Shown here: one piece after another, positions 36,372 to 42,346 of the stretch
How positions within the stretch are numbered: position 1 is the first letter of the stretch
How the letters are laid out: each line of letters starts with the position of its first letter
From: Bacillota bacterium
GTDB taxonomy: Bacteria > Bacillota > Clostridia > Acetivibrionales > DTU013
Direction of reading: 5' to 3'
Assembly (NCBI GenBank): GCA_029778665.1
Contig: JAKOPX010000245.1
Coordinates: 1-42,361, forward strand
Length of the DNA: 42,361 nucleotides
Translations under genes and position numbers: made by a program
Notes under the pieces: generated by a model
The model's database searches: none
What the model was told of the DNA's origin: nothing
The model's input: only the letters and a program-made list of their open reading frames with translations

Positions 36372-39038
36372 TTATCCGGTTGCTGAATGCTGCATACCTT
36401 GTTCGCCCTGTTTTTCGGCGCTCCGGCCGGTAAGCCCCCTGGCCTTCCGGTATTTCTCCAGGACTTCGACGGCAGGGTCGAATTCCTCATAGAACATGAC
36501 GATCATTTCGCCAGGTACTGCTTCTGCCATAGCTTTTTTGAGCGCCAGGTCCTCCTGGTATATTACAGTTATCCTGTCCTTGTCCATGCCCGCTTCGATA
36601 GCGCCGCGATAAAGGAGGTCGGCAACTTCTCCGGCGTCTCTCCCCCTCAGGTCGCTGTCTTCCTTGATATAGAGCTTGTTGAAAAAGCGCCCGCAAATCC
36701 TGCCGACTTCGATTATACTTTCGTCCAGCCTGTCTCCCGGCATGCCTATCACGCCTGTATATACGGAAGCATTGAAATGCTTCAGCATGTCTGTAACGGC
36801 AATGTAGCCAGCTTTATTGTGGCCGTAATCGAGCATGACGGAAAACCCGCCCATGTCGAATATGTTGAATCTGCCCGGATTCGCAGCCAGGTCCGGCCTG
36901 AAGCTCATTATGCCTTTCCTGATCCTGGCGACCGGCATGCCCAAAGCCAGGAGCGCCGACACAGCGGCGAGCGAATTTTCAATATTACATGCAGCCCTGC
37001 CTCCGTACGTTATCGGGATATCGCCGATCCGCGCTATAAACTTCTCGTGGCCCGATATGGAAGCGTAAATCGAGCCTTCCCTGATGTATACCGCATCCCG
37101 TCCATCACTCAGCCACTTGCGGATCTCGGGACTGTTTTCGACCGCCGAAAACAACAATGGTCTGCAATTTATCCTGCCTAGTATGAACGCGGTCATTTCA
37201 TCATCCGCATTCAGAACGGCTGTCCCATCAGGCTTGACCGCCTCGGCTACCAGAGACTTGACCTTGGCCAGTTCCTCTTTTGTGTTTATACCGTCAAGTC
37301 CAAGGTGGTCGTCGCCTATATTGACGATCACCCCCACATCGGCAAGGTCATAGCCCAGTCCTCTCTTTATGATGCCTCCCCGCGCCGTCTCAAGCACAGC
37401 TGCTTCGACCCTGGTATCGCCCAGGATCCGCGCCGCGCTCAGTGCACCCGTGTTGTCACCTTTCAGGATACACTCGTCTCCGATGTATATGCCTCCCGTG
37501 GTCGTCATTCCTGTCGTTAAGCCGTTTGCTCGCAATGTATGGGCGATCATCCTGGTCACGGTAGTCTTGCCATTGGTCCCGGTTACGGATACTATCGGGA
37601 TGCTGCTGGGCTGTCCCTTCGGGAAAAGGTACTCTAATATGTCGCAGGCAACATTCCTTGGCTTCCCTTCCGTTGGGTATATGTGCATCCTCAGCCCGGG
37701 CGCCGCATTCACCTCGATGATGGCACCATTGTCCTCATCCAGCGGTTTCGATATGTCAGCACAGGTGATATCTATACCAGCAATGTCGAGTTCCATCAGT
37801 TCAGCGGCCTTCACAGCCAGTTCCGCGTTGCGGGGATGGACTTCGTCGGTACAGTCCCTGGCAGTTCCGCCGGTGCTGAGGTTTCCGTTGCAGCGAAGCA
37901 GTACCTTTTCGCCGGCTTTGGGTATGCTGTCCTCGGTATAGCCCATTTTTGCAAGGACCTGCCTTGACATGTCGTCTATCCTGATAATCGTCAGCGGTTT
38001 TTCGTGGTCTGTTCCCCTTAACGGGTTTTTGTTTTCGATTTCGACAAGCTCCCTGATGGTGTGCACACCGTCCCCGATTACGAAAGGCGGCCTGCGCTCT
38101 GCAGCCGCGACCATTTTACCGCCGACGACAAGCAGCCTGTAGTCCTTTCCTTCGATGTGCTTTTCGACTATCACTGCATGACTGAACCTGGCAGCTGCAG
38201 TGAATGCTTTTTCCAGTTCTTCAAAGCTTGTTATGTTTGTGGACACGCCCTTCCCCTGGTTCGCATCGAAGGGCTTGACGGCTACAGGCCATCCTATGGC
38301 CGCGGCGATGGCAGCCGCGGACCTGTATGTGTAAGCCACGTCGCCCCGCGGTACAGGTATCCCGGCTTCGGAAAGCCTCTGCTTTGTAAGGTGCTTGTTG
38401 CCTGCGATATCGACCGCCACACAGCTGCTGCTGTCTGACAGCGAGGCTTCAAGGTACCTGGTGTACTTGCCCGTGCCAAGCCTCAGCACGCTCGAGTGCT
38501 CCAGGCATACAACAGGTATGTTCCTCCTGCGCGCTTCTTCATACAATGCCTCTGTGCTGGGTCCCATGCCGGATTCGGCTGCGACCTTCGCCAGGCGCTT
38601 TTTTATGTTCTCAATGTCCGGCATTTCGCCGGCAATGAGCATGTTGACCATATCCGAAACGGCCAGCAGGCACTCCGTCGCAGCCTTCTCGTTTTTGTAC
38701 TCAAAAATGATGTGATACAGCGACGGTTCTTCGACGACCCTGCTTTTACCGTAATGCACGTCATAGCCAAGCACGCTCTGGAGTTCAAGCACCATGTGCT
38801 CAGCCACATGCGCGAGGTACGTTCCCTCTGCCAGCCTATCGACAAAACCGCCCTCATAACCGAGGGAACAGACATGTTTCGCCAGCCCAGGCAGCATTTC
38901 CAGGAGCCGTTCATTGAATCCCTCTATCTGCCTGGTCGGCGTGTCATAATGTTCGCCGAGATCAGCAACCGCCCTGATCACGGGCCTGTGGCTGTAAATG
39001 TTCCTTCCTCTGAACGGCTCTATTTTTATTATTTCCAC
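36372..39038 (-). CDS. cphA: Cyanophycin synthetase
   Basis: An 888-aa enzyme that builds cyanophycin, a poly-Asp backbone with Arg side chains, from Asp and Arg with ATP. The length matches bacterial CphA (about 870-900). The three modules are in order: an N-terminal domain (1-160, GYEGGFVDRLAEGTYLAHVAEHM), an ATP-grasp domain (about 215-475, PVAVKPFDANQGKGVST and AAPGLRMHIYPT) and a Mur-ligase-like domain with P-loop GTNGKTT (487-493) and the ETARGGIIKRGLG segment. The start is a GTG at 39038 with GGAGG 7 bases upstream; it overlaps the cphB stop by 10 bases, so translation is coupled. It is the last gene of the operon. Polymer granules would form in the cytoplasm. Confidence 0.97.
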   Translation of the reverse strand: MEIIKIEPFRGRNIYSHRPVIRAVADLGEHYDTPTRQIEGFNERLLEMLPGLAKHVCSLGYEGGFVDRLAEGTYLAHVAEHMVLELQSVLGYDVHYGKSRVVEEPSLYHIIFEYKNEKAATECLLAVSDMVNMLIAGEMPDIENIKKRLAKVAAESGMGPSTEALYEEARRRNIPVVCLEHSSVLRLGTGKYTRYLEASLSDSSSCVAVDIAGNKHLTKQRLSEAGIPVPRGDVAYTYRSAAAIAAAIGWPVAVKPFDANQGKGVSTNITSFEELEKAFTAAARFSHAVIVEKHIEGKDYRLLVVGGKMVAAAERRPPFVIGDGVHTIRELVEIENKNPLRGTDHEKPLTIIRIDDMSRQVLAKMGYTEDSIPKAGEKVLLRCNGNLSTGGTARDCTDEVHPRNAELAVKAAELMELDIAGIDITCADISKPLDEDNGAIIEVNAAPGLRMHIYPTEGKPRNVACDILEYLFPKGQPSSIPIVSVTGTNGKTTVTRMIAHTLRANGLTTGMTTTGGIYIGDECILKGDNTGALSAARILGDTRVEAAVLETARGGIIKRGLGYDLADVGVIVNIGDDHLGLDGINTKEELAKVKSLVAEAVKPDGTAVLNADDEMTAFILGRINCRPLLFSAVENSPEIRKWLSDGRDAVYIREGSIYASISGHEKFIARIGDIPITYGGRAACNIENSLAAVSALLALGMPVARIRKGIMSFRPDLAANPGRFNIFDMGGFSVMLDYGHNKAGYIAVTDMLKHFNASVYTGVIGMPGDRLDESIIEVGRICGRFFNKLYIKEDSDLRGRDAGEVADLLYRGAIEAGMDKDRITVIYQEDLALKKAMAEAVPGEMIVMFYEEFDPAVEVLEKYRKARGLTGRSAEKQGEQGMQHSATG

Positions 39039-39844
39039 TGTTTTTCCTCCACTCTCAGAACTTTTCTGTTTGTCATGTCGAATCCGTATCCTGCAGGCAG
39101 CACATGCAGTACCACGTTGGTGATGGCAAGGTTCTCGTCCGGCATCAGTTCTGAAACGTTGGAACTTTTGATGCTCTTGCCGTCCACCACCATGACCGAA
39201 TTGCTCCCTATTACTTTGAAATGATCGTCAGGATATACTCTGATCGCCGTATCCTCATCTATGCCGATCCCAAGTATCGACGGGTTTTCAGCAACTCCGC
39301 AGAGCAGCCTGCCTATCCTCCCTCGCTGGTGGAAGTGCTGGTCGATCAGCGCCCTGTCCAGCAAACCCAGGCCGGGTGCCATTTTGAGCGTGCATTTCCT
39401 GGCGGGATCATTGTCATTCCCGTCCACGATCATGGTCCTGCTCATGGCTGACGCCCCGGCACTCGTTCCTGCGATGACAGCGCCTGACTTCCAGGCCTGG
39501 TGCAGCATCTCGTATATTTTCGTGCCTCCCAGTATGCTTGTTATCCGCAACTGGTCACCGCCGGTGAAGAATATGCCGGTGGCTTCGGCTATGAGCCTGG
39601 CATTCTGATCAGCTTCAGCATCTTCCCTGGTATTGATGTTCAGGAAGCTTACATTGCCTGCTCCAAGGCCAATAAACAATGACTTGTACTGGCTTCCTGC
39701 CTCGATAGGTTCTTCCGTGGCAGTTGTGATTATCACGATATTTGCTTTCGATGCTCCGGAAATCTCGACAAACGTCTTCAGAATAAGACATTCCCCTGTC
39801 TTATCCTCAGCGCCTCCTATGATTATTAAGTTTCCTGTACTCAT
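39029..39844 (-). CDS. cphB: Cyanophycinase
   Basis: A 271-aa serine exopeptidase of family S51 that cuts cyanophycin to beta-Asp-Arg dipeptides. The nucleophile elbow is GTSAGAS with S128, and DQHFHQRGRIGRL is the second conserved segment. IIIGGAEDKTG at the N-terminus is typical. No signal peptide is visible, so it works in the cytoplasm on the cell's own store, unlike secreted scavenging forms. The start is ATG 39844; a GTG three codons earlier (39853) is possible because a GGGAG lies nearer to it. It sits between the 91-aa membrane gene and cphA. Confidence 0.96.
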   Translation of the reverse strand: MSTGNLIIIGGAEDKTGECLILKTFVEISGASKANIVIITTATEEPIEAGSQYKSLFIGLGAGNVSFLNINTREDAEADQNARLIAEATGIFFTGGDQLRITSILGGTKIYEMLHQAWKSGAVIAGTSAGASAMSRTMIVDGNDNDPARKCTLKMAPGLGLLDRALIDQHFHQRGRIGRLLCGVAENPSILGIGIDEDTAIRVYPDDHFKVIGSNSVMVVDGKSIKSSNVSELMPDENLAITNVVLHVLPAGYGFDMTNRKVLRVEEKQWK

Positions 39845-39942
39845 TGATTTCACCGTCTCCCTGGCGGGTCAATACTGAACAGTGCCGCAGCCTCCTGTAC
39901 GGGACCTGCCCGGATAGCGGCTCCGGCATCGCCTGATTTTGG

Positions 39943-40218
39943 TCAGACACCAATGATATTTTTCAGGTATTCATGCAGCATATCGGAGAATATCAGCCCT
40001 GCCGCCATCAGCAGGATGCTCGCCGCGACAAGGGGCAGCCCCGCCCTGCTTCCGCCTTTGCTGATCCTGATACCCAGTATGATAGCCGCCGCTCCGAACA
40101 CATACGGGTAGCTCACCAGTGAAGCGAGAGCCGCAGCCCACCCCGCAGCAGTACACATCATCATACCGGCTTTCGGCAGTGTCCTGCCCTGTTTTCCGGC
40201 ACGGACCATATCATCCAT
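39943..40218 (-). CDS. Small membrane protein in the cyanophycin operon
   Basis: A 91-aa protein of unknown function. After a short polar N-terminus it has two or three hydrophobic segments (about 18-35, 38-50 and 60-76). It ends in an amphipathic tail, HEYLKNIIGV. No charged catalytic residues sit in the helices and no known family is recognised. The ATG has GAGGTGATC 3 to 8 bases upstream. It lies 44 bases after iadA and about 98 bases before cphB, so it is likely part of the same transcript. It could help place the granules or transport Asp, Arg or dipeptide; this is speculative. Confidence 0.7.
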   Translation of the reverse strand: MDDMVRAGKQGRTLPKAGMMMCTAAGWAAALASLVSYPYVFGAAAIILGIRISKGGSRAGLPLVAASILLMAAGLIFSDMLHEYLKNIIGV

Positions 40219-40262: not shown

Positions 40263-41387
40263 TCATTTTTTTAGTGTAAATATTTGTCGCAGCCTGCCCC
40301 CCGACATCAACATGCGGGGCGTCAATGATGCCTTGTCGGCAAGCAGGATGTCGGCATCACTTCCAATGGCTATTCTCCCTTTACGCGGATACAGTTTCAG
40401 TGTCTTTGCCGGGTTTTCCGTCACGGTTTTCAGTACGAGTTCCAGCGGCAGCCCATGATCGGCCACCGCGGACCTGATATCATTGAAAAGGGCCATTATG
40501 CTTCCTGCATCATTTTGTGACGGACCGGCGCCGCTCCCGTTCCCGTCGGACGATACCGTCACCCTGTCCAGTCCGTTCCCGCTTTCAACGAGCGCGACAA
40601 GGCACTGCGGAACATTTATGCCTTCGTCGGTGTCTTCTCCTGCCGTCAGGTCGATCGTTCCTCCGCCGCTGTGGTACCTGCGGGCCTGGTCGAATAAGGA
40701 CCTGTTCCTGTTGAGGTGGGTGGGAACAAACATTTGCATGGGAAAGTCCGTAAATTCCAGCAGGTCGAAAAGCGGTGAGAGTCCTTCCCTGCCGTTGCCC
40801 ACGTGCAGATGTACAATACCTGCTTTGCCGCCCAGCATGCCACCTGTCAGGACCTCATAAGCCAGCTTTGCCAGCTCGTTCCGTGTCGGGCAGGCAGACC
40901 TGTGGTCTGAAATGGCTATTTCACCCGCGCCGATGACCTTGTCTATAAGCGCGATGTCCGTCAGTATCCTTCCGGTTATAGTGACAGGCGGTATACCGTA
41001 ATTGCCCGAATATATGAAAGCAGTCAGTCCGTCTGCTTCCAGCGCCCGCGCTTTCATCAGCAGTTCCTCCATGCTTTTGCCGACCCCGTCGCATCCGAGG
41101 AGACCAACAACAGTGGTTATCCCTGCGTTCATCAGTTCGTCAGAACTTATCGGTCCTATAGTGCTGCCCGGACCTTGTTCCCCTCCGCCGCCAGTTATAT
41201 GGACATGCTGGTCTATCAGTCCTGGCATGGCAACCATACCGCTGCAGTCGACCACTTCCGGCCGGAGTTGCTGCCATATATCTATCCGGTCCGATATCAG
41301 CGCTATCTTACCGCATGCAGTCAGGATATCCTTTATCCCAGAATATTCAGGAGTATAGAGTTCGACATTTTTCAATACCGTGAACAT
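40263..41387 (-). CDS. iadA: Isoaspartyl dipeptidase
   Basis: A 374-aa amidohydrolase of the IadA family that splits beta-linked aspartyl dipeptides, here the beta-Asp-Arg released by cyanophycinase, to Asp and Arg. The metal-site residues are HVH (61-63), H195 in HLHVG, the His of PTHLNRN (about 224) and the Asp of SSDGNGS (about 278). GGGGE (66-70) is the gate region. The bridging lysine of E. coli IadA (K162) appears to be Glu here (E156 in GEIAISDHR). It is the first gene of the operon; the ATG has AAGGA about 10 bases upstream. Confidence 0.94.
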   Translation of the reverse strand: MFTVLKNVELYTPEYSGIKDILTACGKIALISDRIDIWQQLRPEVVDCSGMVAMPGLIDQHVHITGGGGEQGPGSTIGPISSDELMNAGITTVVGLLGCDGVGKSMEELLMKARALEADGLTAFIYSGNYGIPPVTITGRILTDIALIDKVIGAGEIAISDHRSACPTRNELAKLAYEVLTGGMLGGKAGIVHLHVGNGREGLSPLFDLLEFTDFPMQMFVPTHLNRNRSLFDQARRYHSGGGTIDLTAGEDTDEGINVPQCLVALVESGNGLDRVTVSSDGNGSGAGPSQNDAGSIMALFNDIRSAVADHGLPLELVLKTVTENPAKTLKLYPRKGRIAIGSDADILLADKASLTPRMLMSGGRLRQIFTLKK

Positions 41388-41621: not shown

Positions 41622-41650
41622 TTGATTATTTAATATTATTCTGCTAAACT
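41622..41650 (+). promoter_or_regulatory. Proximal promoter of the LexA-like gene
   Basis: TTGATT, 17 bases, then TAAACT. The start would be about 55 bases before the ATG, which has an AAAGGGTGA ribosome site. Confidence 0.5.
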
Positions 41651-41710
41651 GTTTTGAGAATTATGTAAAGCTTATAAATACAAAAGTATACAGGTACAAA
41701 GGGTGATAAA

Positions 41711-42346
41711 ATGGCAGCTAACTACAGCAGTTTAACAGCAAAACAGAAAAAGGTGTACATGGTTATCGAATCTTACATCAAGACCCATGGTATACCCCCA
41801 ACAGTTCGCGAAATAGGGGAACTGGTCGGTGAAAAGACCCCGGGCGCCGTTCAGGGGATACTGAACAGGCTTGAACAGAAAGGTGTCATTAAAAGGCAGC
41901 TTGGCGCCGCCAGGTCGATACAGCTCGTTTCTCCTGACGATCAGATGTACGGCAAGCATGTTTTCGTTCCCAAGATTAAAAAGATCAGCAAGCGGAACAT
42001 AAATGATCTGACGAACATTTACAATATCGAACTGTACCATCCCATTTCGCAGGAAGTCCTGTCGGAAGACGGGGACTATATCATTTCCGAGTGCCCGGCC
42101 GACGGATTGACGGAAAGCGGCTTCGGCGCCAACGATATAATCGTCGTCAACAGGGCGGCGGAACTGAAGCCGGGGGATATCGTCCTTGCATTCTATGAGA
42201 CGATCTCACTCCTGAGAAGGTATTATCCTGAAAGCAACGGCACCATTACTCTGAAAGCAGACTCGAAGGTAATCGACAGGGATAACTTTACCCCGGATGA
42301 GATCACGATAATAGGCAAAGTTGAAGGAAGGTACACGAGATTCTGA
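41711..42346 (+). CDS. LexA-family repressor with inactive peptidase domain
   Basis: A 211-aa protein with LexA architecture. Residues 8-72 are an excellent LexA winged helix (LTAKQKKVYMVIESYI, GIPPTVREIGELVG, ILNRLEQKGVIKR). The C-terminal half still follows the S24 fold (DIIVVNRAAELKPGDIVLAF). The catalytic Ser position of GDSM is Gly (ADGL, 130-133), and the catalytic Lys of TVKR is Leu or Arg (LLRR, 167-170). No Ala-Gly cleavage site exists in the linker (73-120). It should bind DNA but not self-cleave, so it cannot be derepressed by RecA in the normal way. It is divergent from the cyanophycin operon, which suggests control of that operon or of itself. A true LexA elsewhere in the genome is expected. 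Confidence 0.9.
   Translation: MAANYSSLTAKQKKVYMVIESYIKTHGIPPTVREIGELVGEKTPGAVQGILNRLEQKGVIKRQLGAARSIQLVSPDDQMYGKHVFVPKIKKISKRNINDLTNIYNIELYHPISQEVLSEDGDYIISECPADGLTESGFGANDIIVVNRAAELKPGDIVLAFYETISLLRRYYPESNGTITLKADSKVIDRDNFTPDEITIIGKVEGRYTRF

Follow-up and report, generated by a model that had tools for sequence, protein, structure and literature searches.

The window, a stretch of 42,361 nucleotides from a Bacillota bacterium, carries near its end a gene for a LexA-fold regulator. We use LexB as a working name for this protein and for the orthologous clade founded on it. The gene is divergent from a cluster in which cphA, cphB and the gene for an isoaspartyl dipeptidase (iadA) lie side by side, all three products scoring above the cut-offs of their TIGR models, together with a gene for a small membrane protein (TM). 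The coordinates of these genes, of the LexB domains and of the sites discussed below are collected in Table 1.

Table 1. Features of the lexB locus, in window coordinates.
Feature	Position	Strand	Basis or remark
LexB, LexA-fold regulator (211 aa)	41711..42346	+	ORF; orthologues at 49-94% identity, 40/58 genomes of the order
LexA-type winged-helix DNA-binding domain, residues 6-68	41726..41914	+	Pfam PF01726 (LexA_DNA_bind), 63 bits
Position of the LexA Ala84-Gly85 scissile bond, Lys94-Arg95 in LexB	41990..41995	+	Arg95 in 39/39 orthologues
S24 (LexA C-terminal) domain, residues 105-204	42023..42322	+	Pfam PF00717 (Peptidase_S24), 37.5 bits, cut-off 23.3
Position of nucleophile Ser119, Gly132 in LexB	42104..42106	+	GDSM -> ADGL; Ser in 30/39 orthologues
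Position of catalytic Lys156, Arg169 in LexB	42215..42217	+	TVK -> LLR; Arg in 39/39 orthologues
Candidate LexB operator 1, TAACAGTACTGTAA	41599..41612	.	one mismatch from TTACA-N4-TGTAA
Promoter-like block for lexB, TTGATT-N17-TAAACT	41622..41650	+	extended -10 TG; between the two operator sites
Candidate LexB operator 2, TTATGTAAA (= TTTACATAA on the opposite strand)	41661..41669	.	10 bp past the lexB promoter -10
iadA, beta-aspartyl (isoaspartyl) dipeptidase, divergent from lexB	40263..41387	-	TIGR01975, 387 bits, cut-off 331
TM, small membrane-protein gene, about 90 aa (91 in the window)	39943..40218	-	retained beside lexB even without cyanophycin genes
cphB, cyanophycinase	39029..39853	-	TIGR02069, 327 bits
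cphA, cyanophycin synthetase	36372..39038	-	TIGR02068, 1176 bits

Both halves of LexB are those of a LexA protein, as the sequence-only reading of this DNA had proposed. Each is recognized by its Pfam model, and residues 85-211 of the AlphaFold model (mean pLDDT 83.8, pTM 0.61) match residues 75-199 of the E. coli LexA C-domain (1jhc) over 123 residues (Z = 14.9, r.m.s.d. = 2.6 Å). Other structure matches were 3k2z (Z = 16.8) and, for the DNA-binding domain, 1lea (Z = 12.1). The recognition helix, TPGAVQGILNRL, is almost unvarying in the alignment of the clade. An hhalign comparison of LexB with a profile of canonical LexAs of the same order gave an E-value of 1e-23. The score against the LexA equivalog model TIGR00498 is 97.2 bits, under the cut-off of 110.95, and LexB is 27% identical to the LexA profile of its own genome.

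The profile-profile alignment, an ungapped count from the serine to the lysine position (37 residues in LexB and in canonical LexA alike) and the structure match all give the same placement of the catalytic parts. Residues 132, 168 and 169 of the window protein thereby correspond to Ser119, Val155 and Lys156 of E. coli LexA. The earlier claim that the nucleophile and the catalytic lysine are both missing is thus confirmed by alignment and structure, and the absence of an Ala-Gly bond in the linker by profile alignment, Lys94-Arg95 standing at the scissile position with a two-residue insertion immediately behind it. The possibility that another part of the domain supplies a Ser-Lys dyad was considered and rejected: the lysine position is occupied by arginine in all orthologues, and the sequence, profile and structure alignments give a single register.

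Clade-wide counts refer to 39 distinct lexB loci or sequences. Among these the serine position holds Ser in 30, Gly in six, and Cys, Asp and Ile in one each, and Lys90 is invariant along with the two arginines of Table 1. As the Lys-to-Arg and Gly-to-Arg changes are found in all 39 sequences and the serine is kept in 30, the replacements of the lysine and of the scissile bond are ancestral to the clade, and the serine disappeared later in at least three lineages, that of the window included. Self-cleavage of LexB by the chemistry of LexA is very unlikely. A more permissive possibility is that LexB still serves as an SOS-type repressor, inactivated with RecA through an unusual cleavage, either by a Ser-Arg dyad or in trans by canonical LexA or another protease. 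The serine retained by most orthologues and the conservative nature of a Lys-to-Arg change would fit this scenario. However, the scissile bond reads X-Arg in 39 of 39 sequences with the insertion adjoining it, the serine is missing in the window lineage and was lost independently in others, at neutral pH arginine works poorly as a general base, and the GAAC-N4-GTTC box is absent from nearly all lexB regions. We consider an SOS-type role highly improbable.

The sequence-only reading had suggested a search for a second, intact lexA, and one is present in the same genome (G000:C346), with GDSM, TVKTF and TAGQP motifs; the source assembly is incomplete (84% complete). This canonical lexA adjoins a gene for a LysM protein, and two GAAC-N4-GTTC boxes lie between them (L001). 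All 15 canonical LexAs inspected in the order are likewise intact. When placed in a tree with canonical LexAs, the LexB sequences form a single clade with a support of 100/100. Within the order to which Acetivibrio belongs, 40 of 58 genomes have a lexB orthologue, among them Acetivibrio straminisolvens, A. mesophilus and Anaerobacterium chartisolvens, and a survey of 291 genomes of the class indicates that the gene is confined almost wholly to this one order. Outside it, genome G058 carries a lexB sequence identical to that of locus L054. A further match outside the order, in G160, has Ser, Lys and Ala-Gly and was discarded as a canonical LexA. Phage relatives of LexB are distant, all below 60% identity and at 27-30% among the matches listed. 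The complete genome G311 has two lexB-TM copies (L085 and L087) of equal score and opposite orientation, about 1.9 Mb apart and apparently within a duplicated segment.

Within the genus, omega is 0.04-0.06 for the S24 half and 0.01-0.05 for the DNA-binding half. With omega near 0.05, purifying selection is strong, which speaks against decay and for a LexA paralogue put to a new use. The loss of active-site residues might also be expected of a functionless, decaying lexA duplicate, but next to no weight can be given to this explanation in view of the omega values of both halves, a reading frame that is open in every orthologue found, 15 invariant positions in the linker and S24 half, and a conserved synteny and operator.

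The survey of clostridial genomes called for by the sequence-only reading, for this paralogue next to cphA, established that the link between lexB and the cyanophycin genes is common, though not absolute. The nearest gene upstream of lexB is iadA at 28 of the 39 distinct loci, TM at nine and cphB at one, with none at the remaining locus, and cphA and cphB come next wherever the flank of lexB is long enough, with some exceptions. Sorting the 58 genomes by lexB and cyanophycinase gave 33 with both genes, seven with lexB only, 11 with cphB only and seven with neither; lexB is therefore not invariably present with cyanophycin genes in the order. In genus g29, cyanophycinase is missing from five genomes with lexB, which have kept the gene together with the operator and the divergent TM gene; no cphA was found in G311, the one g29 genome checked for it. 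G330 likewise has lexB without cyanophycinase. G025, another of the seven lexB-only genomes, does have cphA, so its missing cphB may be an assembly gap. The reverse situation is found in genus g7, where 11 genomes have cyanophycinase and no lexB; the three inspected have kept TM-cphB-cphA, iadA is gone, and the motif described below is missing at two of the three loci. Genus g7 has lost lexB, and genus g29 apparently the cyanophycin genes. The proposal of a dedicated regulator for the cyanophycin operon stands only in part: the divergent linkage is conserved across the order and comes with a shared candidate operator, but "dedicated" is too strong a word given the g29 genomes and the 11 g7 genomes. 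The most constant neighbour of lexB is the TM gene, whose product has an invariant FG core and for which a Pfam search returned no confident family.

To look for recurrent sites at the locus, k-mers were counted in 31 intergenic regions. The top nonamer, TTTACATAA, occurs in 28 of them, compared with a shuffled mean of 1.4, and in 36 of 39 lexB intergenic regions in a wider set. In 24 long loci, the lexB intergenic regions contain 30 copies in 9.05 kb (3.3 per kb), and 110 other intergenic regions of the same loci contain five copies in 29.7 kb (0.17 per kb), a density ~20-fold lower; the lexB regions are related by descent, so that the formal (Poisson) P of this enrichment is too small and overstates independence. 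The palindromic form TTACA-N4-TGTAA, with one mismatch at most, was found in 16 of 39 regions (shuffled mean 3.0), often as the upstream site. It has the same spacing as the LexA box of Gram-positive bacteria, and its half-sites differ from those of that box. Inverted site pairs (up to one mismatch) mostly lie 64-67 or 74 bp apart, start to start, and these two classes differ by about one helical turn. Between the upstream and the downstream site, a promoter-like block is conserved as TTGAAA-N17-TAAACT with an extended -10 in nearly all intergenic regions compared. The second half-site is weak at many candidate operators, including the downstream one. No GAAC-N4-GTTC SOS box was found in the lexB intergenic region of the window. 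Single loci deviate from this pattern: the lexB region of L050 has no candidate operator site at all, that of L032 additionally carries a canonical GAAC-N4-GTTC, and L058, a region without lexB, contains one copy of TTATGTAAA.

The sites go with lexB. They stay beside it where the cyanophycin genes have disappeared or been relocated, and are absent near the relocated operon: in G040/G339, iadA-cphB-cphA has moved to another contig without the motif, and lexB-TM has retained two sites. This distribution speaks against the idea that the TTTACATAA sites belong to another regulator, of nitrogen, arginine or sporulation genes, with LexB binding elsewhere or activating from different sites, and so does the LexA-family spacing of the palindromic form. 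In favour of such an owner are a Spo0A-box-like TGTCGAA in some of the regions and a link of clostridial cyanophycin genes to sporulation in work cited within PMC13241827; we regard it as unlikely on balance. The TGTCGAA element itself is located in the lexB-iadA intergenic regions of L013, L015, L026, L028 and L039, and may point to a connection of the cluster with sporulation.

A genome-wide search located paired sites at the lexB locus only. The extended operator is present at the lexB locus in five of eight lexB genomes tested, and elsewhere it is scattered at unrelated genes with about the frequency of a reversed control pattern. A genome-wide LexB regulon was rejected on these grounds. 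LexB could nevertheless be a global or metabolic regulator with its main targets elsewhere, its place beside iadA-TM-cphB-cphA being inherited gene order, as might be suspected from the lexB genes kept without cyanophycinase in g29 and G330 and from L054, where lexB lies beside folE and leuB with no cyanophycin gene. The scatter of the extended sites at control frequency and the loss of the site where the cyanophycin operon has moved off both run counter to this, the latter suggesting local action, and a global role seems rather improbable.

Taken together, the sequence comparisons make it probable that LexB is a non-cleaving LexA paralogue, acting as a local and autoregulated transcription factor of the divergent region common to lexB and iadA-TM-cphB-cphA. 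A LexB dimer, held together by the S24 domain as its architecture suggests, would bind the TTACA-N4-TGTAA-like sites and TTTACATAA half-sites flanking the lexB promoter, and would thereby repress lexB as well as the operon on the other side. Control in this direction is more likely than activation, since one candidate site lies about at the expected transcription start of lexB; the upstream candidate site faces the divergent operon. The targets would be mainly local, namely lexB, the TM gene and, where they belong to the cluster, the cyanophycin genes. Release or activation would have to come from something other than RecA-driven self-cleavage, and candidate signals are a small ligand in the remodelled active site, a partner protein, or the protein level alone. 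For the first of these, it is conceivable, if somewhat speculative, that the former active site has been rebuilt as a ligand pocket, in which the invariant Arg95 and Arg169 would meet and might hold an anionic metabolite, for instance aspartate or beta-Asp-Arg. If so, a one-shot, self-destroying repressor would have been turned into a reversible, metabolite-responsive one.

Compared with canonical LexA (TIGR00498; the proteins of E. coli and Thermotoga maritima, and LexA_1449 of Acetivibrio thermocellus), LexB has the same winged helix and S24 domain over its full length, the same predicted fold, a probable autoregulation and a candidate operator of N5-N4-N5 geometry, but the window protein lacks the Ala-Gly bond, the lysine and the serine, falls below the TIGR00498 cut-off and has a different operator half-site. 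DAP-seq mapping of LexA_1449, the SOS LexA, showed that it recognizes a Bacillus-type SOS box; in the available text of that study, which covered more than 90 regulators of A. thermocellus DSM 1313, it is the only LexA-family member reported (PMC8457756). Non-cleaving LexA is a kind already known, since in Synechocystis sp. PCC 6803 LexA has neither the Ala-Gly site nor the dyad serine and controls non-SOS genes (PMC7567884; PMC4759255). Like the window LexB, it has the full LexA architecture without scissile bond and serine. It is, however, described as the LexA of that organism, with a wide regulon and possibly tuned by phosphorylation, whereas LexB occurs in addition to an intact SOS LexA, as a paralogue in which Lys-to-Arg and Gly-to-Arg are fixed and whose targets are presumably local and near cyanophycin genes. 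New in LexB are thus its coexistence with an intact LexA, the fixation of arginine at both positions, the candidate operator and the cyanophycin neighbourhood. Two further LexA relatives offer partial parallels. The truncated homologue gp6 of phage GIL01 is also a LexA-derived DNA-binding protein that is no longer an SOS repressor (PMC6182141), but it consists mainly of the DNA-binding domain and acts as an activator, whereas LexB retains the entire S24 domain. IrvR of Streptococcus mutans is likewise a LexA-like regulator outside the RecA paradigm; unlike LexB, which is without the residues needed, it seems, judging from its abstract, still to undergo autocleavage (PMC7101444).

LexB would accordingly show how duplication of a switch that works irreversibly, by proteolysis, can give rise to a local regulator that is no longer cleaved. 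The order of the steps can be read from its tree, with the lysine and the scissile bond replaced first and the serine lost afterwards. The paralogues all match the LexA family model, yet they should not be taken for SOS repressors. Literature on cyanophycin in combination with Clostridium, C. thermocellum or LexA yielded no regulator of the clostridial cyanophycin operon, and LexB and its sites provide a candidate regulator and operator for such operons.

The cyanophycin genes of the relatives also vary. cphA is broken in two of them, lying in two frames in L036 (L036:562-3331) and containing an in-frame TAG in Acetivibrio straminisolvens (L039:624-3208). Several genomes have a second, divergent cphA of ~50% identity (L059, L060, L061, L062), with cphB, iadA, lexB and a TTTACATAA at its start all absent. 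At L089 (G041:C1:31000-44000), rearranged and apparently fragmented pieces of cphA surround cphB, and the lexB of the same genome lies apart, beside folE and leuB.
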